NCBI GenBank assembly: GCA_024641085.1
Contig: JAHEDT010000036.1
Location: 1 to 32,101, forward strand
Reading direction: 5' to 3'
Length of the DNA: 32,101 nt
From: Geobacteraceae bacterium
Lineage (GTDB): Bacteria > Desulfobacterota > Desulfuromonadia > Desulfuromonadales > BM103
Below the pieces are notes generated by a model. That model was not told where the DNA came from and ran no database searches. It saw only the letters and a program-made list of their open reading frames with translations. Positions within the stretch are counted from its first letter, which is position 1, and the number at the start of each line of letters is the position of its first letter. Positions 2,367-25,620 of the stretch are shown here, one piece after another. Both the position numbers and the translations under genes were made by a program.

Positions 2367-3087
2367 TGCCAAGCAGAGATTGATTTTCGCCCTGGATGTC
2401 GAAACCCTGGAGGCCGCCCGCAGCTGGGTTGACCGGCTGCAGGGGCAGGTCGGTGTGTTCAAAATCGGTAAGCAGCTCTTTACTCGGTGCGGCCCGGACG
2501 TCGTCAAGCTGGTCCAGGCCGGCGGTGCCGACGTGTTCCTCGACCTCAAGTACCACGATATCCCGAATACCGTGGCCATGGCCGGCCTCGAGGCGCTGCG
2601 CCTCGGGGTCAGAATGTTCAACGTTCACGCCCTGGGCGGCTTCGAGATGATGGCCAGGCTGGTTGCCGAGGTCGACAAGGTCTGCCCGCGCGACAACCCC
2701 CAGCGTCCCATTCTCCTTGCGGTGACAATCCTGACCTCGTCCAATCAGGAGACCCTGCGCGGCGTCGGTATCGATCGCCCCGTCGAGGTCATGGTGCCGA
2801 AGCTGGCCAAGCTGGCCAAGGATGCCGGCATGGACGGCGTCGTGGCGTCGCCGAAAGAGGTCTCCCTGATTCGGGCTGCCTGTGGCGATGATTTCCTGAT
2901 CGTCACCCCGGGCGTGCGCCCTGCGTTTGCTTCCCAGGATGACCAGAAGCGGGTCATGACCCCCGGCGACGCCCTGCGGGCCGGCGCCGATTATCTGGTG
3001 ATCGGCCGGCCGATCTCCGCTGCCGCGGACCCTGCCGCTGCGGCCGCTTTGATCATTCAAGAAATGCAGGCGGCCCTGAGCGGTTGA
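2359..3087 (+). CDS. pyrF: Orotidine 5'-phosphate decarboxylase
   Basis: Catalyses the last step of UMP synthesis, decarboxylation of OMP, in the cytoplasm. The protein is 242 residues from ATG 2359, normal for bacterial PyrF. It opens with the first beta strand LIFALDVET and carries the catalytic D-x-K-x-x-D block in FLDLKYHDIPNTVA. Later come VTILTSS, the phosphate-binding region FLIVTPGVRP, and DYLVIGRPIS near the C-terminus. A GTG six bases upstream (2353) is an alternative start; ATG 2359 fits the family N-terminus better. The start lies inside the end of the DUF4388 gene, so translation is probably coupled. It ends the proS-DUF4388-pyrF group. No convincing terminator is seen after the stop. 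Confidence 0.96.
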   Translation: MNDAKQRLIFALDVETLEAARSWVDRLQGQVGVFKIGKQLFTRCGPDVVKLVQAGGADVFLDLKYHDIPNTVAMAGLEALRLGVRMFNVHALGGFEMMARLVAEVDKVCPRDNPQRPILLAVTILTSSNQETLRGVGIDRPVEVMVPKLAKLAKDAGMDGVVASPKEVSLIRAACGDDFLIVTPGVRPAFASQDDQKRVMTPGDALRAGADYLVIGRPISAAADPAAAAALIIQEMQAALSG

Positions 3088-3282
3088 ACTCCTCCTGCCC
3101 CTGCAGTTCTCAGTTCCAGCGACTCCTTTTTCAGAAGTTATTGCCCATCCCAAGATATGCGGACCGAAACATCTACCGTTGGTGAAGAATATGGCTGCGG
3201 ATTTGACGCAAGGCTGCTCCGGCTGTGGCCAGACATTGATTCTTTGGCAAGGAGAGCCTTTGCCCTCGCGTCGAGAAAATTG

Positions 3283-3361
3283 GAATTCATATGTATTTTT
3301 AGTGGTTTAAAGGCCTCTCCTGGAGGTCTTTGGTTTGACATGGTTCCAGGCCTGCGGTAGA
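3283..3361 (+). repeat. Duplicated promoter element, copy A
   Basis: This aligns without gaps to 5162-5240 at an offset of 1879 bases. Counting by eye, about 57 of 79 positions are identical. The matches include GAATTC at the left end, TTTTTAG-GGTTT in the middle, TGGTTTGACATGG at the -35 and a GTAG block at the -10. The conserved spacing and the position upstream of two unrelated genes suggest a shared promoter and regulator site. Common descent by duplication is an inference. Confidence 0.6.
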
Positions 3362-3363
3362 GG
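3335..3363 (+). promoter_or_regulatory. Sigma-70-type promoter for the glycosyltransferase gene
   Basis: A perfect -35 box TTGACA (3335-3340) is followed by a 17 bp spacer and a weak -10 TAGAGG (3358-3363). The predicted transcript starts near 3370, giving a 5' leader of roughly 155 bases before the ATG at 3526. The weak -10 beside a perfect -35 suggests a possibly regulated promoter. Confidence 0.5.
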
Positions 3364-3525
3364 TTAAGCTGAGGACGATCTGTGGTGGCCTAGAGAAGAC
3401 AGGAGGTAAGTTAGCTTATAACGGCTCAATCCAAGAAACGCAGATTGCTACCACTGATCAGTTGATTCCTATCACTGACAAAAAAACGCCTGCCGAACCA
3501 CTAGCAAGCACTGTGGAGTATCCCC

Positions 3526-4995
3526 ATGAGTGAGTCTCAGCGATATTTTTATGCCGCTATTGGTTTTGTGGTTGTCTACGCCATAGTGTGGACCCTGGTC
3601 TCCTCCCAGCTTGACCCCGCGGTTCCCTTTGACGCAGTGGAGGCCTTGAACTGGGCACGCAATGCCGAGTTCGGTTCGCCCAAGAACCCCTACATGGTGG
3701 GTGGCGTTATGACCTTAGGTTGGTTGCTCGATCCCGCCCTGCCCATCAGCCTGTACTGGTACCTGTCCCACTTTGTCGGAGTTGGTTTGGGAATGCTGGG
3801 CGTCTGGCTGCTCAGTAAGCGGCTGTTTGGCAGAGGTGACATTGCCCTGCTTTCACTCATGAGCCTGAACCTTAGCGGAATTATCAACTTCGATGTGATC
3901 CCGTATAATGACAACTACCTGCTCGTCATGTTCTGGCCCTATCTGTTTCTGTTCTTCATCAAGGCCGTCTACGACAACCAATATCATTGGTTCTCGTTGG
4001 CAATTGTCACCGGCCTGGCTTCAATGTCGAAGTACTCGACATGCGCCTTCCTGCCGTTCATGTTTCTCTACATACTCCTGGTTCCTGAGGCACGGAAGGC
4101 ATTCAGATCCCCTGTGTTTTACCTGGCCATTCTGCTGTTCCTACTTCTTATGGCCCCCAATGCTGTCTGGCTTTACCGGCACGACTACGCAGCATTCAAC
4201 TGGGTCCACTCGCAGATAACGCGTGGATTCAACCTGAAGGCAGCGATTGCTTTCGTGGCGGTGTTCTACCCTGCGGTCCTGCTCGCTCTCGTGTTGCAGC
4301 CGCTTGGCGGGACATGGGGTGTGCCCTCAGCCCCGGAGAAGAGGGCGGTTCTCTTTGTGTTCGCTCCGCCGATCCTGATGATCCTTGTCTATTTCCTGTT
4401 CCATCGCGGAGGGAGAATGACCGAATGGCTTCAGCCCTTTGCCATACTCACGCCGGTCGTTTTGTTCTCCCTGCTCAACTTGGACAGGGTCAGGTCGCTG
4501 CGAAAGGTCAGTTCCTCATTGCTGGCGATTGCAGTTGTCGTGTGCCTCGGGTATGCCCTGGTCCACCAATTGAATATCCGGGGCGCAGGCAGTAAGTTCA
4601 GCTACATCCAGAATGTCAGCGCCGAGATAAATGTGACCTGGCGGGACAGATATGACCGGCCGCTCAAGTACGTTGGGGGAAGTCGTTTCTCTCGGTGGCT
4701 GACTTTCTATGCGCCGGACCGTCCCGCGATCACCACGCCTTGGTCAAATGACAAGAAACCCAGTATCTACAACGCCCGGATAGTGGCCAGCGACATTATG
4801 GAAGACGGGGCATTGTTTGTCAGTAACCCGGGCGACAACTGCGAACAGACCAATTTTGAGGAGAACGTGTTCGATTTCCCCGGAATAGACATTCCGGAAA
4901 AGCAGGAGTATTGGTTCAGGGACGAAAAGGGCCGGCAGGTTAGACTCTGCCTCGGTTTCTCACCGCCTCACAGGCGATCCCGTCAAGACATGTAG
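3526..4995 (+). CDS. GT39/ArnT-like integral membrane glycosyltransferase
   Basis: A predicted GT-C fold enzyme that would transfer a sugar from a polyprenyl-phosphate donor to a lipid or protein on the periplasmic face of the inner membrane. The donor and acceptor cannot be told from sequence. It has 489 residues with about ten hydrophobic segments between residues 8 and 345 and a soluble C-terminal part of about 130 residues. The first periplasmic loop has the acidic block PFDAVEALNWA, in the position of the catalytic Asp/Glu of ArnT/PMT enzymes. The block PLKYVGGSRFSRWLTFYAPDRP in the tail is typical of a GT39 subgroup of proteobacteria. The ATG is preceded only by a weak ribosome site (GTGGAG). 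The gene stands alone between two long intergenic regions and shares a promoter element with the rpfF-like gene downstream. Family assignment is good; substrate unknown. Confidence 0.8.
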   Translation: MSESQRYFYAAIGFVVVYAIVWTLVSSQLDPAVPFDAVEALNWARNAEFGSPKNPYMVGGVMTLGWLLDPALPISLYWYLSHFVGVGLGMLGVWLLSKRLFGRGDIALLSLMSLNLSGIINFDVIPYNDNYLLVMFWPYLFLFFIKAVYDNQYHWFSLAIVTGLASMSKYSTCAFLPFMFLYILLVPEARKAFRSPVFYLAILLFLLLMAPNAVWLYRHDYAAFNWVHSQITRGFNLKAAIAFVAVFYPAVLLALVLQPLGGTWGVPSAPEKRAVLFVFAPPILMILVYFLFHRGGRMTEWLQPFAILTPVVLFSLLNLDRVRSLRKVSSSLLAIAVVVCLGYALVHQLNIRGAGSKFSYIQNVSAEINVTWRDRYDRPLKYVGGSRFSRWLTFYAPDRPAITTPWSNDKKPSIYNARIVASDIMEDGALFVSNPGDNCEQTNFEENVFDFPGIDIPEKQEYWFRDEKGRQVRLCLGFSPPHRRSRQDM

Positions 4996-5161
4996 CGCTC
5001 ACTCCAGTTCTACGCAAACCTGTCAGATCTTCTCGCCATTCCGGAATCATCATGCGTGTGGCTCTGCCGATTGCCGTTCCCGGTTGGCTCAAAGCGGTCC
5101 AGCCGTCGCCAGGTTTAATTTTTAGGCGGGGAGGGCTGTTGTCCACTCATGATAGGAATCC

Positions 5162-5240
5162 GAATTCAATCGTTTTTTTAGGGGTTTAGAGTCTTCTTAT
5201 GTCAGGTTTTGGTTTGACATGGCTTTGCGCATGCTGTAGA
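5162..5240 (+). repeat. Duplicated promoter element, copy B
   Basis: Second copy of the element at 3283-3361, aligned without gaps. The -35 lies 198 bases upstream of its gene's start codon, compared with 191 bases for copy A. The similarity stops close to the predicted transcription start, so the leaders themselves differ. Confidence 0.6.
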
Positions 5241-5242
5241 AC
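5214..5242 (+). promoter_or_regulatory. Sigma-70-type promoter for the rpfF-like gene
   Basis: TTGACA at 5214-5219, a 17 bp spacer, then TAGAAC at 5237-5242. Same architecture as the promoter at 3335-3363, with a perfect -35 and a weak -10. It would drive the rpfF-like gene, and the GGDEF-EAL gene if the two are cotranscribed. Confidence 0.5.
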
Positions 5243-5411
5243 GAGGTTGCGGAATATTGCGGGCCGCTGTTTCGGTGGAGGGGGAGTTCCATGGCGCCGT
5301 TGGCGTCGCTCATCTGACCGGTATCCCTGTCAGGTGTGATTGTTACTCATGTGATGCAGAGAAAAGACCGGCTGTTAGCTTGGCCCCCTTTCTCTATGAA
5401 AAGGATGACGT

Positions 5412-6431
5412 ATGTCAGCACAATTCCGCAAGATATTTCGTGAATACAATGAGATATCCGTCCGGTATGACAGAGACCAGGAGGCCATCTGGTGTTATTT
5501 CAAACCCCAGAGCCGCCCCTGCTTTTCTCCACGCTTGCTGCAGGAATCTAAAGAAATCCAGCAATCCATCATCAAGTATCTGACGACCAGTGATAACCCT
5601 GAGAAGTACCCGATCCGCTACTTAATCCTCGCATCCCAAATCCCTGGAGTTTTTAATTTTGGCGGCGATCTGGATCTGTTCGTCACGCTCATTGAAGCTC
5701 AAGAGCGCGAACAACTGCTCGAATACGCTAAAAACTGTATCGACATCTGCTATATGAATGCTGTCTCCCTGCATCTTCCAATCACGACCATTTCCCTTGT
5801 TCAAGGCTCAGCCCTGGGTGGCGGATTCGAGTCCGCCCTGTCAGGCAATGTCTTGATTGCCGAAGAGCACGCCGAGATGGGAGTCCCGGAGATTCGCTTC
5901 AATCTCTTCCCCGGGATGGGAGCCTATAGTTTCCTGGCGCGCAAATGTGGTACATTTGCGGCGGAACAGCTGCTGCGCTCCGGGAAAATTTACCGCGCCA
6001 GCGAACTGCATGAAATGAATGTGGTCGATGTCCTGGTCGAGTCGGGAGGTGGGCATCAAGCTGTGGACCGGTATATTAAAAATCACCGGCGCGCCGTGAA
6101 CGGCATGCAGGCCATTCAGTCGGTCAAGCAATTTTATGACCCCGTAACCTATGAAGAGCTTATCGGGATCAGCAAGATCTGGGTCGATGCGGCCTTAAGG
6201 CTGACTCAGACCGATTTGCGTGTCATGCAGCGGATTGTTGCCGCGCAGAATCGCGGGTTCCTGAACTCCAATCCGGCGAGCAGGACGCAACTGGTCCGTA
6301 CGAGACAGGATCGTCGAATGGATTATCAAAATGTGACCTTCCCACTTGTTGACCGTTCCGGAAATCAAATCCACAACGACCGGCGCCGGTGCGATCGGCG
6401 TGAACCGGGTTATATGCAAATGTCCAGTTAA
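5412..6431 (+). CDS. rpfF: RpfF-type crotonase, predicted DSF (cis-2-unsaturated fatty acid) signal synthase
   Basis: Predicted to make a diffusible signal factor from fatty acyl-ACP by dehydration and thioester cleavage, the reaction known for Xanthomonas/Burkholderia RpfF. The 339 residues hold one crotonase fold. The match is to RpfF more than to general enoyl-CoA hydratases: VFNFGGDLDLF, then SLVQGSALGGGFESALSGN, then MGVPEIRFNLFPGMGAYSFLARK. By count, Glu140 (GGGFE) and Glu160 (GVPE) sit where Xanthomonas RpfF has catalytic Glu141 and Glu161. A tail of about 50 residues beyond the usual RpfF length ends in FPLVDRSGNQIHNDRRRCDRRE, a basic DRR-type motif. No signal peptide. A strong ribosome site precedes the ATG. 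The PAS-GGDEF-EAL gene follows after 81 bp with no terminator seen, as in rpfF-rpfR pairs. Fold certain, RpfF subtype likely; the signal molecule is an inference. Confidence 0.85.
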   Translation: MSAQFRKIFREYNEISVRYDRDQEAIWCYFKPQSRPCFSPRLLQESKEIQQSIIKYLTTSDNPEKYPIRYLILASQIPGVFNFGGDLDLFVTLIEAQEREQLLEYAKNCIDICYMNAVSLHLPITTISLVQGSALGGGFESALSGNVLIAEEHAEMGVPEIRFNLFPGMGAYSFLARKCGTFAAEQLLRSGKIYRASELHEMNVVDVLVESGGGHQAVDRYIKNHRRAVNGMQAIQSVKQFYDPVTYEELIGISKIWVDAALRLTQTDLRVMQRIVAAQNRGFLNSNPASRTQLVRTRQDRRMDYQNVTFPLVDRSGNQIHNDRRRCDRREPGYMQMSS

Positions 6432-6512
6432 CGAGCCGTTGCTTGTAATGAGGCCTGCTCAAGACTCTGTGGCCCGATTGTAACTTTTACCCAGAAAAAT
6501 TTGTTTCTTTCT

Positions 6513-8813
6513 ATGGATTTATCAGAAAATTACGATCAGCAAATCTATAGTGACAAACTGACAACGCTTTACACGAGCAACTGGATCAGTACTGCCGCCA
6601 CCCTGTCTGTTGCCGCGATGTATCTCGGCATACAACTGCCGACCCATGACACAAAAGCCCTCTTTGTATGGTATGGCGTCCTCGCAGTTATCTACACCTG
6701 TCGTTATTTCCTGACGAAAAGTTATTTAAAACAAACCCATACCCCTGCCAGGCAACGCACATGGATGCGGCGCTTTCGTTTTGCCGTTTTGGTGACCGGT
6801 CTGACGTTGGGATCGACGGTGGTCTTTTTTTACCCACATGATGATGTTCCGCACCAGGTCTTTACTATCCTGATCCTGGCCGGCATGGCCGCCGGAGGGC
6901 TTACAGTACTCGTGGCCGACCTGGTCTGCTTCAGGGGCTATGTCTGCTCCCTGCTCATCCCGGTCATCGTTTCATGTCTCATTGTCGGGGATACCTTCTA
7001 CGTTACGATTGCAATCCTGGTCGGCATCTTCCTGATGATCATCCTCCGGGCAAGCCGGCGGTTGAACGACATTGTCACCTCCTCCCTGCAACTGCGCTAT
7101 GAAAACCTGGCGTTGGTCAACATCCTGGAAGGGGAAAAGAATCAATTGAGCAACCGGCTCGGCCGGATTCTCAACGACAGCTCAAATGAGCTTTACATTG
7201 CCGATGCTGTCTCGCTCAATTATGTGCAGGTCAACAAAGGGGCCCTCCTGAACCTCGGCCTCACGGAAGAGGAAATGTCGCACATGACATTGCTCGATAC
7301 CATTGTCGACCTTGACAGGGAAGCATTTAACAGCCTCATCGAGCCGCTGAGGTTCGGCATGAGAGAATCAGTCTCCCATAAAACCTTCCACAGGCGTAAA
7401 GACGGCAGTACCTACCCGGTAGAGCTGCGCTTTCAGTTGTCAACCCAGGAAGACCCCCCGGTTCTGGTCGTTACAGCGCTCGATATCACCGAGCGGGACG
7501 AGGCCGAACGCAAGCTGCTTCACCAGGCCAATTTCGACCAGTTGACCAACCTGCCTAACCGCTACTACATGCAGTCTTACATCGGCAGCGCCTTCGCGCG
7601 CGCCAAAAGGGGCCATTCCAAGGTCTCTCTGCTCTTTCTGGACCTGAACAACTTCAAGGATATCAACGACACCCTCGGGCACGGCATAGGTGACGAGCTT
7701 TTAAAGCAAGTGGCCAACCGGATCCGGTCGCTTCTCAGGGCGGTCGATACTGCAGCACGTCTTGGGGGGGACGAATTTCTTGTTCTGCTTGAAGGCCTGC
7801 AGCAGCAGGACCAGGCGGAAGTGGTGATCCAGAAAATCATCGACTCGTTCAAGGTCCCGTTTCATGTCCAATCCAATGAGATATTTACCTCGGCCAGTAT
7901 CGGGATCAGCACCTTTCCAGACGACGGCAGTTCCGTTGAATTGCTCATGCAATATGCTGATACAGCGATGTATAATGCCAAGAAGGACAGTAACCGCAAC
8001 TATTGTTTCTTCTCTCACGAACTGCGCGAATACATCGATAAGCAGCTCGCCGTGAAGAACCACCTGAGACATGCCGTCAATAAAGGTGAGCTCTCAGTCT
8101 TTTATCAGCCCAAAATCAACACCCATAATGAAGAAATTGTCGGTGCGGAAGCCTTGCTCAGATGGCACAATGCTGAACTCGGTAACATCCCGCCGGACAT
8201 TTTTATTCCGATCGCTGAGAAATACGGCCTCATTGAAGAGATCGGCAACTGGGTCTTGAAGACGGCCTGCATGGAAGCCAGCAGTTGGCAGGGGCTGACG
8301 CAGCGCCCGTTGCATGTGGCTGTGAATATTTCACCGAGGCAGTTTCGGACCACCGATTTTCTGAACACCGTGGACCAGGTGCTGGCCGACAGCGCCCTGC
8401 CCGAACATCTTCTGGAAATTGAAATCACAGAGAACCTTCTGATCCAGGATACTTCGGAGCCGCTGGAAATATTGAAGGCCCTCCATAAAAAGAACATAAC
8501 CCTGGCCCTGGACGATTTTGGGACCGGGTATTCTTCCTTGAGTTATCTGAAGCAATTCCCCATTCAGGTTCTGAAGATCGATCGGAGTTTCATCAACGAC
8601 ATGATGGTAAACCAGTTCAATATGTCGCTGGTGGATGCAATTGTCGCCCTGGCGCAGAACCTGGGCCTGCGTCTTGTCGCAGAAGGCGTTGAAACTCAGG
8701 AACAACTCGATTATCTGCGCAGGAAAAACGTGCATGCCATTCAGGGTTACTTGTTCAGTCCTCCCGTCCCGGCGGTAGAATTCCGGGCGATGATCCAGAA
8801 AAAAGCATCTTGA
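6513..8813 (+). CDS. Membrane-anchored PAS-GGDEF-EAL cyclic-di-GMP turnover protein, candidate DSF receptor
   Basis: A dual-domain c-di-GMP protein at the inner membrane. From ATG 6513 it has 766 residues. About six hydrophobic helices lie in the first ~180 residues, followed by a PAS domain (about 210-330, ending VVTALDITERDEAERK), a GGDEF domain and an EAL domain. The GGDEF motif is intact at about residues 418-422 (RLGGDEF) and is preceded by an RxxD inhibitory site (RAVD) five residues upstream. The EAL domain keeps EALLRW (546-551), VNISPRQF, EITEN, DDFGTGYSS, LKIDRSF, AEGVE and QGYLFSPP, so both synthesis and hydrolysis look possible. A TTG at 6501 in the same frame is an alternative start; neither has a clear ribosome site. 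It follows the rpfF-like gene by 81 bp. In Burkholderia the rpfF neighbour RpfR is also PAS-GGDEF-EAL but soluble. The role as DSF sensor is inferred from context. Confidence 0.9.
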   Translation: MDLSENYDQQIYSDKLTTLYTSNWISTAATLSVAAMYLGIQLPTHDTKALFVWYGVLAVIYTCRYFLTKSYLKQTHTPARQRTWMRRFRFAVLVTGLTLGSTVVFFYPHDDVPHQVFTILILAGMAAGGLTVLVADLVCFRGYVCSLLIPVIVSCLIVGDTFYVTIAILVGIFLMIILRASRRLNDIVTSSLQLRYENLALVNILEGEKNQLSNRLGRILNDSSNELYIADAVSLNYVQVNKGALLNLGLTEEEMSHMTLLDTIVDLDREAFNSLIEPLRFGMRESVSHKTFHRRKDGSTYPVELRFQLSTQEDPPVLVVTALDITERDEAERKLLHQANFDQLTNLPNRYYMQSYIGSAFARAKRGHSKVSLLFLDLNNFKDINDTLGHGIGDELLKQVANRIRSLLRAVDTAARLGGDEFLVLLEGLQQQDQAEVVIQKIIDSFKVPFHVQSNEIFTSASIGISTFPDDGSSVELLMQYADTAMYNAKKDSNRNYCFFSHELREYIDKQLAVKNHLRHAVNKGELSVFYQPKINTHNEEIVGAEALLRWHNAELGNIPPDIFIPIAEKYGLIEEIGNWVLKTACMEASSWQGLTQRPLHVAVNISPRQFRTTDFLNTVDQVLADSALPEHLLEIEITENLLIQDTSEPLEILKALHKKNITLALDDFGTGYSSLSYLKQFPIQVLKIDRSFINDMMVNQFNMSLVDAIVALAQNLGLRLVAEGVETQEQLDYLRRKNVHAIQGYLFSPPVPAVEFRAMIQKKAS

Positions 8814-9120
8814 TCATATCCTCCTGCATCAGCAGTAAAGTCTCCTGCTCAGGCCCTTCTTTTGGCCGCAGGGCCGTTCGCGTTTGACAGCCTGTCGGGC
8901 ATAAGGTAAAGAGATAAGGGGTGATTCGCTGCGCGGTGGTGTATGTGAAGACATTATCTGGGGATGCAAGTGTCAACCTGCCGAAAGCACGTTGTCATGA
9001 CATGGTCCCCCGGTGGTGAGTTCGAGTAAAAGGTGCCCCGGCAGCTTTTCTGCTAAGCCACATGCCGTGGGTATCGGTATGCTCCATACGCAAGATATTA
9101 ACCGGAAGGTTTTTTGAAAC
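8814..9120. other. 307 bp intergenic region between the GGDEF-EAL gene and rlmB
   Basis: No gene is called. Just after the EAL stop there is a weak hairpin (GGCCCT and AGGGCC around 8859-8882) with no following T run. A promoter-like element lies at 8884-8912. A perfect 10 bp palindrome TGTCATGACA is at 8993-9002. The remainder shows no structure I can name. Confidence 0.5.
8884..8912 (+). promoter_or_regulatory. Candidate sigma-70 promoter upstream of rlmB
   Basis: TTGACA (8884-8889), 17 bp spacer, TAAAGA (8907-8912). It would give a leader of about 200 bases before the GTG start at 9121. The palindrome at 8993-9002 lies within that leader. Supported by boxes and spacing only. Confidence 0.4.
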
Positions 9121-9870
9121 GTGAAAGTCGATTATCTCTACGGGATTCATCCGGTACGTGAGGGGTTGCGCGGTCGTCGCCAGCCCCTCGAACTCTTTGT
9201 GGACGAAAAGGGCGGCGCTCAACGCATCGATGAGCTGCTGGTTCTGGCGCGGGAGCGTGGCGTCCCGGTGCGGCAGAGGCGTCGCCAGGACCTCGACCGC
9301 ATGGCGGGGCAGACCCATCACCAGGGGGCGGTTCTGAGCATGGAGCCCTTCCCCTATACGGAGATCGAGGACCTGCTCTTCGCCTGGCAGGCTTCCGGGG
9401 AAACTGGTTTCTTCCTGCTGCTCGACGGCATTACCGACCCGCACAACCTGGGGGCCGTGCTGCGCAATGCCGACGCGGCGGGCTGCCAGGGGGTGATCCT
9501 CACCAGGGATCGCAGCTGCGGCATCACCAACGTGGTCGACCGGGCCTCGGCCGGAGCTGTTGAGCACCTGGCCGTCTGCCAGGTGACCAACCTCGCCCGC
9601 ACCATGGAGCTGCTCAAGAAGAGCGGTTTCTGGATCTACGGGCTGGCGGCCGGCGAGGGCGCGCAACAGCTGTTTGCCGCCGACCTCGCCGGAAATCTTG
9701 CCCTGGTGGTCGGCAGCGAAGGGGAGGGGCTGCGCCAGCGGACCCGCGAGCTTTGCGATGGGCTGCTGGAGATCCCGATGAGCGGCGGGGTGGCGTCGCT
9801 GAATGCGGCTTCGGCCAGTGCGGTCGCCCTGTTCGAGGTGGTCCGGCAGAGGCTGTCCGTACAATCCTGA
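9121..9870 (+). CDS. rlmB: 23S rRNA (guanosine-2'-O-)-methyltransferase, SpoU/TrmH family (RlmB type)
   Basis: Predicted to methylate the ribose 2'-OH of a conserved guanosine in 23S rRNA (G2251 in E. coli) using S-adenosylmethionine. The 249 residues contain an N-terminal substrate-binding domain (YLYGIHPVREGLRG) and the SPOUT knot domain. The three SpoU motifs are all present: DGITDPHNLGAVLRNADAAG, LVVGSEGEGLRQ and IPMSGGVASLNAASASAVALFE. The start is a GTG with a GGAAGG ribosome site about 12 bases upstream. Length and motifs are normal for RlmB, but TrmH-family paralogues share the motifs, so the exact rRNA site is an inference. It stands alone and converges with the SDR gene 31 bp downstream. 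Confidence 0.92.
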   Translation: MKVDYLYGIHPVREGLRGRRQPLELFVDEKGGAQRIDELLVLARERGVPVRQRRRQDLDRMAGQTHHQGAVLSMEPFPYTEIEDLLFAWQASGETGFFLLLDGITDPHNLGAVLRNADAAGCQGVILTRDRSCGITNVVDRASAGAVEHLAVCQVTNLARTMELLKKSGFWIYGLAAGEGAQQLFAADLAGNLALVVGSEGEGLRQRTRELCDGLLEIPMSGGVASLNAASASAVALFEVVRQRLSVQS

Positions 9871-9901: not shown

Positions 9902-10693
9902 TCAAGCCATCAACTGCCCGCCGTTGACCTCAATCACCTGCCCGGTCACATAGCCGCTTAAACCATCGCACGCCAGATAAATGGCTGTCCCGGCGCAGTC
10001 TTCAGCCTCCCCAAGTCTCTGTAGAGGAATACCAGCCTGAGTCTTCGCCAATTTCTCCGGGCTGGAAAACCGTGCATGGAATGCGGTATCAATAGTGCCG
10101 GGAGAGATCGCGTTGACTCTGACATGGCGCCCGGCCAATTCTCTGGCGAGTGAGCGGGTCAGGGTGCTGACAAAAGCCTTGGACGCGCTGTAAATCGAAG
10201 AGCCCGGACTGCCGCCGGTTCGGGCAGAAATGGAGCTGACATTGATGATGCAGCCCCCACCTACACGGGCGAAAGCAGGCAAGACTGCGCGGCACGCTGT
10301 GACAACCGAGCGGGCGTTGAGATTGAAGACACGATCAATAAAATCATCATCCACTTCTTCCAGCTGGCGCCTGGCCACCATGCTGCCGGCATTGTTGATA
10401 AGAATATCCAGCCGGCCGAAGTGCGCCACCACCTGTGCGATGGTCTCTGCAACGGCCTGGCTTGAATTGAAGTCAGCCTGTATTGACAAAGCATCACCAC
10501 CGGCCAGGCGAATTCTGCCGACAAGCCCTGAAACAGCTTTGCCATCACTGCTAAAGTGTTGAATACCGACCCTGGCCCCATAACGACCGAAGGCTTCCGC
10601 GATCGCGGCGCCGATTCCGCTGCCGCCGCCGGTCACCAACACAACCTTGCCGGACAGATCCGTTCTCAATAAATCGGTCTGTTGTTCAGACAT
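9902..10693 (-). CDS. Short-chain dehydrogenase/reductase (SDR) in the glycerol operon
   Basis: A classical SDR of 263 residues that would oxidise or reduce a hydroxyl/carbonyl substrate with NAD(P). The cofactor motif TGGGSGIG is at residues 21-28 and NNAG at 100-103. The catalytic Ser lies in NVSSIS (about 153), with Tyr168 and Lys172 in YSASK. It ends with the usual SGYVTGQVIEVNGGQ. The ATG at 10693 has a GGGGAG ribosome site, so it is preferred over the GTG at 10705. It begins 14 bp after the glpK stop on the same strand, so it is almost certainly in the glpK operon. That points to a polyol, dihydroxyacetone or similar three-carbon substrate, but substrate specificity cannot be read from an SDR sequence. 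Confidence 0.88.
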   Translation of the reverse strand: MSEQQTDLLRTDLSGKVVLVTGGGSGIGAAIAEAFGRYGARVGIQHFSSDGKAVSGLVGRIRLAGGDALSIQADFNSSQAVAETIAQVVAHFGRLDILINNAGSMVARRQLEEVDDDFIDRVFNLNARSVVTACRAVLPAFARVGGGCIINVSSISARTGGSPGSSIYSASKAFVSTLTRSLARELAGRHVRVNAISPGTIDTAFHARFSSPEKLAKTQAGIPLQRLGEAEDCAGTAIYLACDGLSGYVTGQVIEVNGGQLMA

Positions 10694-10707
10694 GGTCTCC
10701 CCCACTG

Positions 10708-12201
10708 CTATCTTTGATTTTCAAGGACTCTGGATACCGCTTTTTTCCAGCCGCGCAGCAACGCGTTTCGTTCTGCCTGGTCAAGTTCAGGGGTAAAGAG
10801 TGCATCTCGCTGCCAATTCTTTTGAATATCCTCAAGTGACGCAAAGACGCCGAATTGCACCCCGGCGAGATAGGCCGCACCCAAAGCCGTGGTTTCCGTC
10901 ACCTGAGGGCGTTCCACCGGAAGGTTCAGCAGATCGGCCAGAAACTGCAGAAACCAGTCATTGGCGACCATGCCCCCATCGACGCGCAAGGCCTTCAAGG
11001 CAGCGTCGCTGTCCCCTCTCATCGCCTCCATCAGGTCGTAGGTCTGATAGCCTACCGATTCCAAGGTGGCGCGGACAATCTCTGCAATTCCGGTATCACG
11101 GGTCAGTCCAAAAATAGCACCGCGCGCGTGTGGATCCCAGTACGGGGCTCCCAGCCCGGTAAATGCTGGAACCATATAGACCCCGCGATTGGAATCAAGC
11201 CCCTGCGCGAGTCCTTCGGCCTCACCGGCGGAATTGATCAGTTTCAGCCCATCGCGAATCCACTGAATCGCCGCACCTGCGACAAAAATAGATCCCTCAA
11301 TCGCATAGCTGGTCTTTCCGGCAACACGATATGCGACAGTCGTTAACAGACGGTTCCGGGAACGGAAGGCCTTTTCGCCGGTATTCATCAACACAAAGCA
11401 ACCGGTGCCGTAGGTACTCTTGATCATCCCCGGCTCAAGGCAGGCCTGCCCGATAGCAGCGGCCTGTTGATCGCCCGCGATTCCGCCGATCGGAATGGAG
11501 CGACCGAACAGCTCTACATCCGTCGCTCCAAAATCGGCAATGCAATCCTTGACCTCGGGTAACAGGGCAGATGGAATGTTAAACAGATCCAGCAGAGACT
11601 TGTCCCACTCCTGGGTATGGATATTAAACAGCATGGTCCGCGATGCGTTGGTCGCATCGGTTGCGTGCACTGCACCACCGGTCAGGCGCCAGAGCAGGAA
11701 GCTGTCGACTGTTCCAAACGCCAACTCCCCTTTTTCGGCCCTCGCCCTTGCCCCCGCTACATGATCGAGAATCCAGCCCAGTTTGGTTGCTGAAAAGTAG
11801 GGGTCAATCAGCAACCCGGTCCGTTCGGCGACCAGTTCTTCATTCCCCGCAGATATAAGCTCGGCACAATGGCCGGCGGTGCGACGATCCTGCCAGACAA
11901 TCGCATTGTAAATAGGTTTACCGGTCTGCCGATCCCAGACCAGCGTTGTTTCGCGCTGGTTGGTGATACCGATGCCGGCAACCTCATTCCCGGTCATCTC
12001 TGCCTGCTGCAGCGACCGGCGGCACACCTCGAGCACCGATTGCCAGATCCCTTCCGGATCATGTTCGACCCATGCATCCTGCGGATAGAGCTGACGGAAT
12101 TCTTGCTGGGACTGCGCTACGCAGTGTCCATTTGCATCGAAAATCATGGCACGCGAACTGGTCGTTCCCTGATCGATAGCAAGGATAAGTCGTCTCTTCA
12201 T
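10708..12201 (-). CDS. glpK: Glycerol kinase
   Basis: Phosphorylates glycerol with ATP to sn-glycerol-3-phosphate, trapping it in the cytoplasm. The 497 residues are close to the family norm (~500). It is an FGGY-family kinase with the N-terminal phosphate loop [16 protein letters not shown], then [49 protein letters not shown] and the C-terminal [21 protein letters not shown]. The ATG at 12201 follows an AGGAGG ribosome site by eight bases. It is transcribed leftward from the divergent region shared with glpR and continues into the SDR gene. It would supply glycerol-3-phosphate to GlpD, encoded at the other end of the locus. Confidence 0.97.
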
Positions 12202-12227
12202 AAATGACCTCCTCTAAACCCTGACTT

Positions 12228-12248
12228 GATTATCGAAAGTTCATAATC
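12228..12248. promoter_or_regulatory. Candidate GlpR operator in the glpK-glpR divergent region
   Basis: A 21 bp imperfect palindrome with arms GATTAT and ATAATC around TCGAAAGTT. It overlaps the predicted glpK -10 box. Further TGTTC/GAACA-like half-sites appear near 12280, 12321, 12351 and 12372. E. coli GlpR, a DeoR-family repressor, binds sites built on TTCG/CGAA half-sites, so repression of both directions is plausible. The exact operator is inferred. Confidence 0.45.
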
Positions 12249-12270
12249 ACTCAATATCGAAAATAGTCAA
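12243..12270 (-). promoter_or_regulatory. Candidate glpK-SDR promoter
   Basis: Read on the minus strand: -35 TTGACT (complement of 12265-12270), 16 bp spacer, -10 GATTAT (complement of 12243-12248). The -10 falls inside the palindrome at 12228-12248, as expected for repression by blocking polymerase. Confidence 0.45.
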
Positions 12271-12312
12271 GCTGTCGATTGTTCAAAAGTGAAAACATTT
12301 TACAATCACTCC

Positions 12313-12340
12313 TTGCCAAACGAACAAAATCTAGTATAAA
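12313..12340 (+). promoter_or_regulatory. Candidate promoter for glpR and the glycerol transporter operon
   Basis: -35 TTGCCA (12313-12318), 16 bp spacer, -10 TATAAA (12335-12340). A CGAACA half-site lies in the spacer. The predicted start would be about 60 bases before the glpR ATG. Confidence 0.5.
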
Positions 12341-12407
12341 AAATAAATTAGAACAAATTCACTCCCTAAACAGAACATAGTGATCCCCTAACCGATCTGG
12401 ACTCTGG

Positions 12408-13205
12408 ATGAATCAGCGTCAGAAGGAAATTCTACTGCTCGTTCAGCAACAGGGATTCGTGGCAATCGAAACCCTGGCGCAAAACTTCCAGGTAACTCCC
12501 CAAACAATCCGCCGCGACATCAACACCCTCTGTGAAAAAAAGTTGCTTACCCGCTTCCACGGCGGCGCCGGGCCTTCATCCAGTGTTGAAAACCTTGCAT
12601 ACTCAACACGCCAAGTCATGCATCTGGCGGAAAAGCGCGGCATTGCTCAATTGACCGCGCAGCATATCCCTGACCGGGCATCGATCTTCATCAATATCGG
12701 CACAACGACAGAAGAAGTTGCCAAGGCACTTATGAACCACAGCCGCTTGCGGGTTATCACCAATAACCTGAATGTCGCCTCAATTCTGCGCTGCAATCCC
12801 AGCTTCGAGATCATTATAGCAGGCGGATCGGTACGACCAAGGGATGGCGGAATTACCGGTGAGGCCACCCTTGATTTTATCCGTCAATTCAAGGTCGATT
12901 TCGGTATTGTCGGTATCTCCTGCATTGACGTCGACGGGGCCTTGCTCGATTACGACTATCATGAGGTTCGAGTTGCACAGGCCATTATCGAAAATTCCAG
13001 AAAAGTCTTTCTGGTCGCAGATCATAGCAAATTCGATCGCTACGCCATGGTCAGACTTGGCAGCATAACGCAGGTTGACGCGCTCTTTACTGATCAACCC
13101 CCACCCCTGCACCTTGTTTCTATTCTTAAAGAAGCTGGCGTAGCCCTGCATGTGACCGATTCGTCCACTGTGACGAAAAACCATGTAACTGAAGTATCTA
13201 ACTAA
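12408..13205 (+). CDS. glpR: DeoR-family transcriptional repressor, GlpR type
   Basis: Predicted repressor of the glycerol genes, released by glycerol-3-phosphate. The 265 residues have an N-terminal DeoR winged helix-turn-helix (RQKEILLLVQQQGFVAIETLAQNFQVTPQTIRRDINTLCEKKLLTRFHGGA, given here as positions 3-53). A DeoR C-terminal sugar-phosphate sensor domain follows (INIGTTTEEVAKAL, IIAGGSVRPRDGGITGEAT, FGIVGISCIDVDGALLDYD, VADHSKFDR). Length and motifs match GlpR. The ribosome site is poor, which fits low expression of a repressor. It is divergent from glpK and 13 bp upstream of the first transporter gene, so it probably controls both directions. The effector is inferred from context. Confidence 0.92.
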   Translation: MNQRQKEILLLVQQQGFVAIETLAQNFQVTPQTIRRDINTLCEKKLLTRFHGGAGPSSSVENLAYSTRQVMHLAEKRGIAQLTAQHIPDRASIFINIGTTTEEVAKALMNHSRLRVITNNLNVASILRCNPSFEIIIAGGSVRPRDGGITGEATLDFIRQFKVDFGIVGISCIDVDGALLDYDYHEVRVAQAIIENSRKVFLVADHSKFDRYAMVRLGSITQVDALFTDQPPPLHLVSILKEAGVALHVTDSSTVTKNHVTEVSN

Positions 13206-13218
13206 GGGAAGCTGCTAC

Positions 13219-14313
13219 ATGGCAATGGTTATTGAGAACGTCACAAAAATGGTTGGTAATGCGTGTCATATCAATGATATTTCGCTGCAGCTTGAACCGG
13301 GAACTTTCAACATCCTGCTTGGACGGACCCTCTCGGGTAAAACCACCCTGATGCGACTGATGGCCGGACTCGACAAGCCGACGAAAGGGCGCATTCTGAT
13401 GAATGGTCAGGATTTGACCGGTATGTCGGTGCGCAAACGCGACGTGGCCATGGTTTATCAGCAGTTCATCAATTACCCATCGATGACCGTTTATAAGAAC
13501 ATTGCCTCCCCCTTGCGCCTTGCCAGGGCCTCCGAACCGGACATTGACCGGAGAGTCCGTGAAGTTGCCGAGATGTTACATATTGAAAAGCTGCTCGATC
13601 GATTGCCGGCAGAACTCTCGGGCGGTCAACAGCAACGCACCGCTATTGCCCGAGCACTGGTCAAGGATGCCGAGCTGTTACTGTTAGATGAACCGCTGGT
13701 CAATCTCGACTATAAATTGCGTGAAGAGCTGCGCACGGAGATGCGCGAAATATTCAAGCGCCGCCAATCTATTGTGGTTTACGCCACGACCGAACCCACT
13801 GAAGCCTTGGCATTAGGAGGCAATACCGCAGTGCTGTTCGAGGGGCGACTCGAGCAGTTCGGTCAGACTGTCGATGTCTACCAACATCCACAATCAACTC
13901 GAATTGCTCAGGCCTTTAGTGATCCGGCGATGAATATCGTCGCCGGCAGCGTTGATGCTGACAGTCTTCAACTGGGTGACGCCCGCCAGGTCCCGTTACA
14001 GAGCCATCTGAGTGGATTGAACCCCGGCAACTACCTTTTCGGGATGCGCGCCAATCATCTGCAGCTTGAGCGCAAAATCGCCACAGACATCGGATTTAAC
14101 ACGAGAATAAATCTTGCAGAGATCAGCGGTTCGGAGACCTTTGTTCACGTCACTCACAATGAAGATCACTGGACAGTCCAGAAACAGGGAATTCATAACT
14201 ATAAGATGGAAGAGCAGGTGCAGGTATATGTCGACCCGGCGCGGCTATACGTCTTCGACCTCGACGGTCACCTGGTTGCTTCTCCTGAAGTTATCCCGAC
14301 ACATCTGACTTAA
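13219..14313 (+). CDS. glpS: Glycerol ABC importer ATPase subunit 1 (GlpS-like)
   Basis: One of two unlike ATPases powering glycerol import at the inner membrane. The 364 residues hold a MalK-type ABC domain and a C-terminal TOBE-like regulatory region. Walker A is GRTLSGKT (35-42), Q-loop VYQQF, signature LSGGQ (133-137) and Walker B LLLLDE (153-158). The H-loop is unusual: where MalK has YVTHDQVEA, this protein has YATTEPTEA, so the catalytic His is Thr191. The partner ATPase next door has the His but a degenerate signature, so the pair should form one complete ATP site. A GGGAAG ribosome site precedes the ATG. The set glpR-S-T-P-Q-U-V is the order known for the Rhizobium leguminosarum glycerol importer. 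Confidence 0.9.
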   Translation: MAMVIENVTKMVGNACHINDISLQLEPGTFNILLGRTLSGKTTLMRLMAGLDKPTKGRILMNGQDLTGMSVRKRDVAMVYQQFINYPSMTVYKNIASPLRLARASEPDIDRRVREVAEMLHIEKLLDRLPAELSGGQQQRTAIARALVKDAELLLLDEPLVNLDYKLREELRTEMREIFKRRQSIVVYATTEPTEALALGGNTAVLFEGRLEQFGQTVDVYQHPQSTRIAQAFSDPAMNIVAGSVDADSLQLGDARQVPLQSHLSGLNPGNYLFGMRANHLQLERKIATDIGFNTRINLAEISGSETFVHVTHNEDHWTVQKQGIHNYKMEEQVQVYVDPARLYVFDLDGHLVASPEVIPTHLT

Positions 14314-14324
14314 AGGCAGCATTC

Positions 14325-15437
14325 ATGGCACGCATTGACCTCAAACAATTGGCTCACTCCTATCGCCGCAACCCGACCAGCGCAGGCGATTACGCACTGC
14401 ACAAAATGGATCTCATCTGGGAAGACGGCCGCGCCTATGCACTGCTGGGTCCATCCGGGTGCGGCAAAACCACGCTGTTGAACATTATCTCCGGCCTGCT
14501 GCGCCCGTCGAAAGGGCAAGTCCTGTTTGATGGAAAAGATGTCTCTGCCACGCCGCCTCAGGAGCGTAACATCGCCCAAGTTTTTCAGTTTCCAGTCATT
14601 TATGACACCATGAGTGTTTTCGACAATCTGGCCTTCCCCTTGCGCAACCGTAAACAACCCGAGGCCGAAATCCGCAAACGGGTCGAGGAAGTGGCCGGGA
14701 TGCTCGAATTGCAGGAGGACCTGAACAAGCGTGCGGCCAACCTGAGCGCCGACACCAAGCAGAAGATCTCTCTTGGCCGCGGCCTGGTGCGGAGCGACGT
14801 CGCCGCTATCCTGTTTGACGAACCCCTCACCGTCATCGATCCCCATTTAAAACTCCTGCTGCGGCGAAAACTGAAACAGATCCACGCACGTTTCAAACTG
14901 ACGATGGTGTACGTCACCCACGACCAATTGGAGGCGCTGACCTTTGCCGATCAGGTGGTGGTGATGAATGAGGGCCAGATTTTGCAAATAGGGACGCCTC
15001 AAGATCTTTTTGAAAATCCGCAACACACCTTTGTCGGCTACTTTATCGGCAGCCCTGGCATGAATTTCCTGCCCTGCCGGATGCAGAATGGCAGCGCCTG
15101 TATAGGCGAGCTACGCATCCCCGTTGGTAGCGGAACAGAACAACTTCAGGGCGACTATGAACTGGGCATCCGCCCCGACTTCCTAGAACTCCATGACAAT
15201 CAGGTCGCGGGTAGCCACAGGGTGACTATCAAGGAGGTCGAAGATCTGGGGAACTGTAAAATTGTTCGTGTTCAACTGGCCGAGTACAGCCTCAAGGTAA
15301 AGCTCCCGGAAGGGCGGGATACTCCAATTGAAACCGGCTATCTCGGCTTCCCGCCCGAGTGGATCAGGCTCTATGCCGATGGGCGCTTACTTGAGCGCAG
15401 CGCGCAATATCAAACGCAGCGGGGGGCCTCAATATGA
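14325..15437 (+). CDS. glpT: Glycerol ABC importer ATPase subunit 2 (GlpT-like)
   Basis: Second ATPase of the importer, 370 residues. (In this nomenclature GlpT is an ATPase, not the glycerol-3-phosphate antiporter of E. coli.) Walker A is GPSGCGKT (42-49), Q-loop VFQFP, Walker B ILFDE (162-166) and H-loop YVTHDQLEA with His199, all normal. The signature is degenerate: NLSADTKQKISLGRGL around 139-154, with LSADT where LSGGQ is expected. The C-terminal third is a TOBE/MOP-type domain. It starts 11 bp after glpS, and its TGA overlaps the permease ATG (ATGA), so translation is coupled. Expected to pair with GlpS in a heterodimer beneath the two permeases. Confidence 0.9.
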   Translation: MARIDLKQLAHSYRRNPTSAGDYALHKMDLIWEDGRAYALLGPSGCGKTTLLNIISGLLRPSKGQVLFDGKDVSATPPQERNIAQVFQFPVIYDTMSVFDNLAFPLRNRKQPEAEIRKRVEEVAGMLELQEDLNKRAANLSADTKQKISLGRGLVRSDVAAILFDEPLTVIDPHLKLLLRRKLKQIHARFKLTMVYVTHDQLEALTFADQVVVMNEGQILQIGTPQDLFENPQHTFVGYFIGSPGMNFLPCRMQNGSACIGELRIPVGSGTEQLQGDYELGIRPDFLELHDNQVAGSHRVTIKEVEDLGNCKIVRVQLAEYSLKVKLPEGRDTPIETGYLGFPPEWIRLYADGRLLERSAQYQTQRGASI

Positions 15438-25263: not shown

Positions 25264-25293
25264 TTGACTTTGCGCAGGGGTTCTGGGTAAGGT
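25264..25293 (+). promoter_or_regulatory. Promoter for the riboswitch-controlled B12 operon
   Basis: -35 TTGACT (25264-25269), 18 bp spacer, -10 TAAGGT (25288-25293). It lies directly upstream of the riboswitch aptamer, so the transcript would begin just before it. Confidence 0.5.
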
Positions 25294-25309
25294 AACCCAT
25301 AATTTTCAG

Positions 25310-25478
25310 ATGCCGCAAGGCTTGAACCTGATGCAGGTTCAAAGGAAACCCGGTGTGAATCCGGGACGGGCCCGCCGCTGTAACCGGGGACGAACGTCGC
25401 AGAGACGCCACTGATTCTCCAGTGAATTGGGAAGGCGCGACCAGTAGAGCGAACCGGGAGTCAGAAGACCTGTCTGAA
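25310..25478 (+). promoter_or_regulatory. Cobalamin (B12) riboswitch aptamer
   Basis: Senses adenosylcobalamin or a related corrinoid in the nascent mRNA. The conserved core reads in order: GGTGTGAATCCGGGACGGGC, CCGCCGCTGTAACCGGGGACG, GCCACTG (the B12 box), GGGAAGGCG, AGTAGAGCGAACC, then GGGAGTCAGAAGACCTGTCT. All elements are in the right order and spacing for the Rfam Cobalamin family. The 5' boundary is approximate. A terminator follows at 25542 and a TonB receptor gene after that, so ligand binding is expected to switch the operon off. Confidence 0.95.
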
Positions 25479-25541
25479 AGATATCGTGTTGCTGTCCTCG
25501 CGGTCATGGGGCAGTCGCCGGACATTCGTGGATAGACAGGG

Positions 25542-25579: not shown

Positions 25580-25620
25580 ATTGGTAACGTCCCCGGTTCC
25601 TGTGGGTGTTGGAGGAGCGG

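Follow-up and report, generated by a model that had tools for sequence, protein, structure and literature searches.

The stretch analysed here (the window) is a 32,101-nucleotide contig of a Geobacteraceae bacterium, contig 31 of a draft genome of 3.5 Mb in 151 contigs (99.5% complete). It carries two neighbouring genes on the forward strand: an rpfF-like gene for a crotonase of the RpfF/DfsA family, the synthases of the diffusible signal factor (DSF), and a gene for a membrane protein with PAS, GGDEF and EAL domains, called the partner below. With moderate confidence, we propose that the pair constitutes a DSF-type signalling module different from RpfF-RpfC-RpfG and from RpfF-RpfR, with the mechanism set out further down. 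The module reads as a third DSF architecture beside these two.

The synthase gene rpfF (5412..6431, + strand, ATG at 5412, stop at 6431) encodes 339 amino acids. The RpfF-type blocks GGGFES, GVPE and NLFPGMGAYSF, which a sequence-only reading of the window had pointed out, were all found in its product. The NCBIfam model NF006452 gave this product 364.3 bits (cut-off 177), next to 393.5 for Xanthomonas RpfF and 396.7 for Burkholderia cenocepacia DfsA, both run as partial sequences. The same model was above its cut-off in none of 14 control genomes and was not among the 25 best families shown for two hydratases of the same genome. In a sequence search of solved structures, the four best matches were RpfF/DfsA entries (163-189 bits), and the next reached 55 bits. 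The AlphaFold2 model of the protein (pLDDT 85.6, pTM 0.81) retrieved RpfF/DfsA structures as its first 12 chains (E 7e-26 to 4e-22, TMt 0.91-0.95). Beyond these came other crotonases, with E of 4e-15 or higher and TMt of 0.84 or lower among the 50 rows shown.

Two putative catalytic glutamates, Glu140 (codon 5829..5831, +) and Glu160 (codon 5889..5891, +), were unchanged in all 31 RpfF-family rows of an alignment. They line up with the two Glu residues of the crystallised Xanthomonas RpfF (3m6m for Glu140), in agreement with their earlier identification as the known catalytic pair; we take the native numbers of that pair to be 141/161. Such a pair alone does not discriminate RpfF, because ordinary hydratases have it too. 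The assignment is made because the family profile, the ranking of PDB entries and the tree do discriminate. The maximum-likelihood tree had 99 rows and 288 columns, with 94 RpfF-family sequences (including four crystal sequences) and five hydratases of the same genome. Left out were the fragments L060 and L061 and a long protein of the same genome (L004); the fragment L158 was found after the tree. The crotonase grouped with characterised RpfF, as expected from the sequence-only reading, and the 94 rows were split from the host's five hydratases with a support of 100/99, the hydratase branches being long enough to raise a program warning. We thus assign the product of 5412-6431 to the RpfF/DfsA-family DSF synthases with high confidence. 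Membership of this family lends good support to the prediction that the bacterium makes a cis-2-enoic acid.

Alternatively, the crotonase could be a related enzyme acting on acyl-acyl carrier protein (acyl-ACP) or acyl-coenzyme A, with another, non-signal product, for example in tuning membrane fatty acids. Its 33-43% identity to the crystallised synthases would fit such an enzyme, as would its score with the RpfF equivalog model NF053515, 232.9 bits and thus far under the cut-off of 550. On the same model, again as partial sequences, Xanthomonas RpfF had 519.7 and DfsA 184.8 bits, likewise under the cut-off, and B. cenocepacia DfsA is a synthase active in vitro (PMC4504480, excerpt). Because the characterised DfsA scores still lower, the missed cut-off does not exclude synthase function. 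DfsA is also about as far from Xanthomonas RpfF (39.5% identity) as the window protein is, which has 41.7% identity to Xanthomonas RpfF and 33.5% to DfsA. The modelled fold and the catalytic pair are kept, and RpfC-like kinases lie beside 50 of 74 other RpfF loci. All of this makes a non-signal product improbable.

At its C-terminus, the synthase carries a tail of the form RTxQDRR..FPLxDxxG....DRRxxxDRR (6291..6404, +; tail profile E 6e-18). An alignment of 17 tails had nine invariant columns (RT.QDRR ... FPL.D..G ... DRR ... DRR). On the RpfF set, the tail profile found 18 tailed RpfFs at E below 1e-16, the window included, and three more distant proteobacterial RpfFs from outside its training set (L133, L111 and L104, E 8e-9 to 2e-6); the remaining RpfFs had E of 0.39 or worse. 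At two of these divergent-tail loci (L104:990-6972 and L133:418-6315), rpfF lies near a gene that by eye resembles beta-ketoacyl synthases and near another membrane GGDEF-EAL gene. L111 is a short contig that carries rpfF and the synthase-like gene and does not extend to a GGDEF-EAL gene.

The 18 tailed RpfFs formed a single clade without a tail-less member, with a support of 100/94 in the finished tree and of 91 SH-aLRT in a quick preliminary one. The tail did not drive this clade, because columns filled in less than 30% of the rows had been dropped and the tail is present in 18 of the 99 rows. Within its own genome, the next best places of the tail profile had E of 0.15 and 0.8, and both overlap longer unrelated genes. 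Among 395 genomes of the phylum, it had five strong matches, of which four fall on RpfF and the fifth on an RpfF fragment at a contig edge; another three were weak (E 5e-4 to 0.01) and lie in short frames overlapping other genes. No convincing copy on another protein was found in these genomes, where up to 18 candidates per genome were scored, a non-exhaustive sampling. The tail was rejected as a common domain, with a Pfam match for none of the 17 tails and no PDB match up to E 10. The AlphaFold2 model shows it as a short hairpin of middling confidence. RxxD-type peptides are known as binders of cyclic di-GMP (c-di-GMP); the strict RxxD spacing is not conserved among the tails, and nothing to the point on c-di-GMP binding by such a tail was found among the open-licence papers listed.

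A conserved tail might also mean that RpfF is mainly a protein partner, whose tail or body would bind regulators, be it the GGDEF-EAL protein or others, with catalysis being secondary, as proposed for Xylella RpfF. The nine invariant columns would agree with this, and in Xylella an RpfF that is catalytically dead continues to support signalling (PMC4504480, excerpt). Such a role is very unlikely here, given that the catalytic glutamates are invariant in every aligned row and that loci with another neighbour, or with none, retain the tail. Because RpfFs beside a kinase, or lacking such a neighbour, retain it, the tail is not solely a docking site for the membrane partner. It probably regulates or docks the synthase.

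Downstream of rpfF follows an intergenic gap of 81 bp (6432..6512, +), in which no terminator-like site was found, and then the membrane PAS-GGDEF-EAL gene (6513..8813, +, 766 amino acids). The automatic call of the open reading frame (ORF) starts the partner at TTG 6501. We preferred ATG 6513 because the sister species conserves this ATG, and not the TTG; given this start, the 81-bp spacing stated in the sequence-only reading is exact. Pfam recognised GGDEF (172.7 bits) and EAL (238.8 bits) above cut-off, and two PAS matches were below it. In the AlphaFold2 model of residues 1-331 (pLDDT 83.1, pTM 0.57), six membrane-length helices (residues 23-181, 6579..7055, +; mean pLDDT 83) were seen, the last leading into a long linking helix and then a PAS domain. 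A simple hydropathy scan of the N-terminus marked four to five stretches. The PAS domain (about residues 222-331, 7176..7505, +) matched solved PAS domains, e.g. 3bwl with Z 15.6.

The GGDEF domain (7527..7994, +) has its GGDEF motif and an RxxD motif five residues ahead of it, and the EAL domain (8058..8765, +) has the catalytic signatures EAL, DDFGTG, EITEN, KID, EGVET and QGY. The claimed PAS-GGDEF-EAL architecture with intact GGDEF, RxxD and EAL residues was thereby recovered, the PAS domain through the model and the rest through its motifs. Of GGDEF, there are 11 matches in the host genome as a whole; the transmembrane-PAS module is matched once.

The neighbourhoods of rpfF were compared across a scan of one genome per species, covering 84,980 species. 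At least 573 relatives were confirmed, and the loci surveyed were the best 80 of these plus the phylum matches, which is not a random sample. Together with the contig-edge fragment L158 (genome G654), the tailed set amounts to 19 loci. A membrane PAS-GGDEF-EAL gene was next downstream and co-directional in 12 of the 18 tailed loci, or 13 of 19 with L158. In all 13 pairs, it was on the same strand as rpfF. For the 12 pairs of the 18 loci, a simple ORF finder put the gap between -56 and 241 bp. None of the 74 other RpfF loci had such a neighbour within 400 bp. Fifty of them had an opposite-strand downstream RpfC-like kinase (by BLAST similarity to the kinase of L054), 2 had another GGDEF/EAL protein, and 22 had nothing recognised, some of these lying at contig ends. 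The pairing predicted for related genomes is thus conserved in 13 of 19 tailed loci, against 0 of 74 others, and it does not extend to all tailed loci.

The GGDEF motif was intact in 12 of 12 pairs, and the EAL motif was present in all 11 partners reaching that far, in the form EVL in L071, L072 and L075; the partner genes of L066 and L072 are cut by contig ends. Pairwise distances of RpfF and of the partner were correlated over 12 pairs (r 0.863), and none of 5000 permutations was as high (maximum 0.72). The two genes are mostly passed on together. Most members of the tailed clade are metagenome bins, and single contigs, above all two Campylobacterota ones, may be misassigned. Two betaproteobacterial metagenome-assembled genomes (L103:3770-5347 and L137:7192-9204) have rpfF followed by a co-directional PAS-GGDEF-EAL protein with, by eye, a MerR-type DNA-binding start and partly degenerate motifs. 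These proteins are possibly DSF- or c-di-GMP-responsive transcription factors.

Besides the missed equivalog cut-off, several observations weigh against a DSF module of the proposed kind. L063, whose RpfF is the nearest from outside the genus (66-68% identity), has an RpfC-like kinase on the opposite strand, as does L070, and the tailed loci L057, L067 and L068 have neither type of partner, so the choice of partner varies. A common history of neighbouring genes may account for part or all of the distance correlation. The residues by which the PAS domain of RpfR binds its signal (S169, N172, Y183, R187 and N202) could not be matched in the partner. An hhalign comparison of the partner PAS with PdeR, the Escherichia coli homologue of RpfR, had a probability of just 5.6%; this alignment places a Tyr opposite Y183 but no Ser or Asn opposite S169 and N172. 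A genome search with the L063 kinase as its one query (652 amino acids) gave 70 kinase/receiver matches, the best spanning residues 187-573. None covers residues 1-121, and three start at 122, 154 and 175, inside or near the membrane part, so that the genome may hold an RpfC-type receptor elsewhere.

Receptors seem to have been swapped within one synthase clade, because L063 has the RpfC-like kinase (L063:7077-9035, convergent with rpfF) in place of the GGDEF-EAL partner. The tailed rpfF genes of L067 (2219-3199) and L068 (3526-4515) are on Campylobacterota-labelled contigs with no GGDEF-EAL gene or RpfC-like kinase nearby, a possible misbinning. In L051, the remaining one of the six tailed loci without the pair, the contig ends.

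RpfF could also make DSF while the partner senses another cue, such as oxygen, redox or membrane state, through its PAS or membrane domain; DSF would then be read elsewhere, and the operon would mean co-expression only. A fold search with the membrane-PAS model gave rows dominated by PAS domains, among them FixL, NifL and LOV domains, a generic result that would agree with another cue. The RpfR PAS was not in the rows shown, which excludes nothing. The three tailed loci in which RpfF lacks the membrane partner would also fit, and so would the many other sensor kinases of the genome. Against a separate cue stand the co-directional adjacency in 13 of the 19 tailed loci and the correlated divergence. 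Against DSF being read elsewhere stands the kinase search in this genome, in which none of the 70 matches to the one query covered its RpfC-type input domain in full. We consider a separate cue possible but unlikely. The conserved pairing and the correlated divergence suggest instead that the partner reads the DSF signal into c-di-GMP.

This arrangement resembles RpfF-RpfR of Burkholderia and Cronobacter in having an RpfF-family synthase beside a PAS-GGDEF-EAL protein, with DSF tied to c-di-GMP in one protein. RpfR is soluble, its FI domain (residues 1-95) binds and inhibits RpfF, its PAS domain (118-224) binds the signal, and its gene is convergent with rpfF (PMC6361424 and PMC4504480, excerpts). 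The partner, in contrast, has six modelled membrane helices and no detectable FI domain, and its gene is co-directional with rpfF. The parallel with Burkholderia RpfR that the sequence-only reading had drawn therefore fails in these details. When the partner was compared with PdeR, the GGDEF-EAL half alone aligned (39% over 442 columns, E 6e-99). In a search for an FI domain, partner residues 1-335 had no BLAST match better than E 6.5 to the first 225 residues of PdeR.

With RpfF-RpfC-RpfG of Xanthomonas and others, the module shares an RpfF-family synthase, a membrane-bound putative receptor and an output to c-di-GMP. RpfC is a hybrid kinase acting via RpfG, whereas here the membrane domain leads straight into PAS-GGDEF-EAL. 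The neighbours of rpfF in the window are a PMT_2 gene and the GGDEF-EAL gene, with no RpfC-like kinase, and the sister species has the same partner. The membrane domain was also considered as a relative of the RpfC input domain, which found no support at the sequence level (hhalign of 12 against 51 sequences, probability 0.2%).

A further possible likeness is to the six-helix domains of CqsS, LqsS and class III adenylyl cyclases, in which six short membrane helices likewise lead into a signalling helix. CqsS and LqsS have lipophilic ligands; that of the six-helix receptor CqsS is a quorum signal, and CqsS is able to drive an adenylyl cyclase (PMC4821796, excerpt). An action of fatty acids on mammalian cyclases has been reported as well, at binding sites still to be mapped (PMC12414865, excerpt). 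By sequence, the membrane domain had no match among solved structures. By fold, its likeness to this type consists of the match to the membrane domain of adenylyl cyclase 9 (7pd4) alone, a single row with Z 12.5 over 183 residues at 3.4 A and 9% identity, which is in the chance range of helical bundles. The match is suggestive because CqsS binds a lipophilic signal and can drive adenylyl cyclase, and because fatty acids are reported to act on cyclases. The C-terminal half of the partner resembles GGDEF-EAL phosphodiesterases of the DibA and PdeR/Gmr type, with 460 bits for DibA and 418 for PRK10060. The curated cut-offs of these models, 980 and 782, are far above these scores, and the N-terminus differs.

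In the proposed mechanism, RpfF would take 3-hydroxyacyl-ACP from fatty-acid synthesis, form a cis-2 double bond and release a cis-2-unsaturated fatty acid. This signal would enter the membrane and bind the partner in its six-helix membrane domain, in the PAS domain or in both. Binding would shift the balance between synthesis of c-di-GMP by GGDEF and its breakdown by EAL, so that cell density would set c-di-GMP without a phosphorelay. The DRR tail would regulate or dock the synthase.

A more specific and, taken as a whole, tentative version goes further. The partner would represent a third class of DSF receptor, in which PAS follows a membrane domain of six helices of the CqsS/adenylyl-cyclase type. 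A cis-2-unsaturated fatty acid bound inside the membrane would directly drive the bifunctional GGDEF-EAL enzyme, with no phosphorelay or FI-type brake. The brake would be found in the arginine-rich DRR tail of RpfF, a possible sensor of c-di-GMP or acyl carrier protein, through which the output would feed back on signal synthesis. The cassette would spread among anaerobic Desulfobacterota-type bacteria and related phyla.

Geobacteraceae, Desulfobulbaceae and their relatives shape sulfur and metal cycling, and a module of the proposed kind would extend DSF signalling to them. It would also add a one-protein, membrane-embedded switch from DSF to c-di-GMP, plus a conserved tail on the synthase. 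Some acidophiles are among the bacteria from which DSF signalling has been described. The descriptions come mainly from xanthomonads, Burkholderia and enterobacteria (PMC4504480, excerpt). Among the open-licence papers listed, we found no description of a DSF system in Geobacteraceae, Desulfobulbaceae and relatives, or of an RpfF with a membrane PAS-GGDEF-EAL partner.

The closest relative of this RpfF among the matches listed, with 87% identity, was in the genus-mate G001 (L037; L062 is the same contig and was excluded from counts). Among 118 relatives, a close RpfF relative was found in this genome and G001 only, and the other listed matches had 50.3 bits or less. The cut-off of NF006452 was passed by at least 2 of 277 genomes of the class and at least 12 of 395 of the phylum; the counts are lower bounds, since scoring was limited to the top 8 or 5 candidates of each genome.

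The stretch from the pyrF stop to the rlmB start (3087..9121, no strand assigned) is missing in most relatives and is an apparent insertion site. An rlmB match was present in 35 genomes, and 28 loci outside the genus were taken for comparison. In 21 of these, pyrF ends 8-30 bp ahead of the rlmB match, and in the other 7 it was not found in the stretch at hand. The order in G001 is pyrF end, rpfF, partner and rlmB, so that the pair lies between pyrF and rlmB in this genus. Because pyrF abuts rlmB in the 21 loci of relatives, the pair was probably inserted there, i.e. acquired. A PMT_2-type glycosyltransferase gene (3526-4995) lies between pyrF and rpfF, and the sister species has none at that place. 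Between the two species of the genus, the ratio of nonsynonymous to synonymous substitution rates (dN/dS) was 0.078 for rpfF, 0.10 for the partner and 0.098 for the RpfF tail; both genes of the pair are under purifying selection. The dS values of rpfF (0.88) and the partner (0.82) are more than twofold that of the adjoining rlmB (9121-9870, 0.33), for which we offer no explanation.

Upstream of rpfF, a TTGACA box (5214..5219, +) falls in a conserved block of the sister-species alignment and is a weak candidate promoter element. The sigma-70 promoters predicted by a scan were rejected, with 3 sites against 3.0 expected from shuffles and the TTGACA at 5214 not among them. A structured RNA upstream of rpfF was likewise rejected, since a lax scan of 4900-6600 gave one chance-level match (E 0.53). 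A search of viral contigs with low-degeneracy peptides of automatic choice found no relative.

Downstream of rlmB, the region 9902-15437 holds genes for a short-chain dehydrogenase/reductase, a protein that by eye resembles glycerol kinase, a regulator of the GlpR type (333.4 bits against a cut-off of 331) and two UgpC-like ABC ATPases, and is probably a glycerol uptake region. Over the whole window, the structured RNAs at gathering score were just four tRNAs and a distant cobalamin riboswitch. The riboswitch is strong (107 bits) and lies at 25291-25491, ahead of an ORF at 25606.

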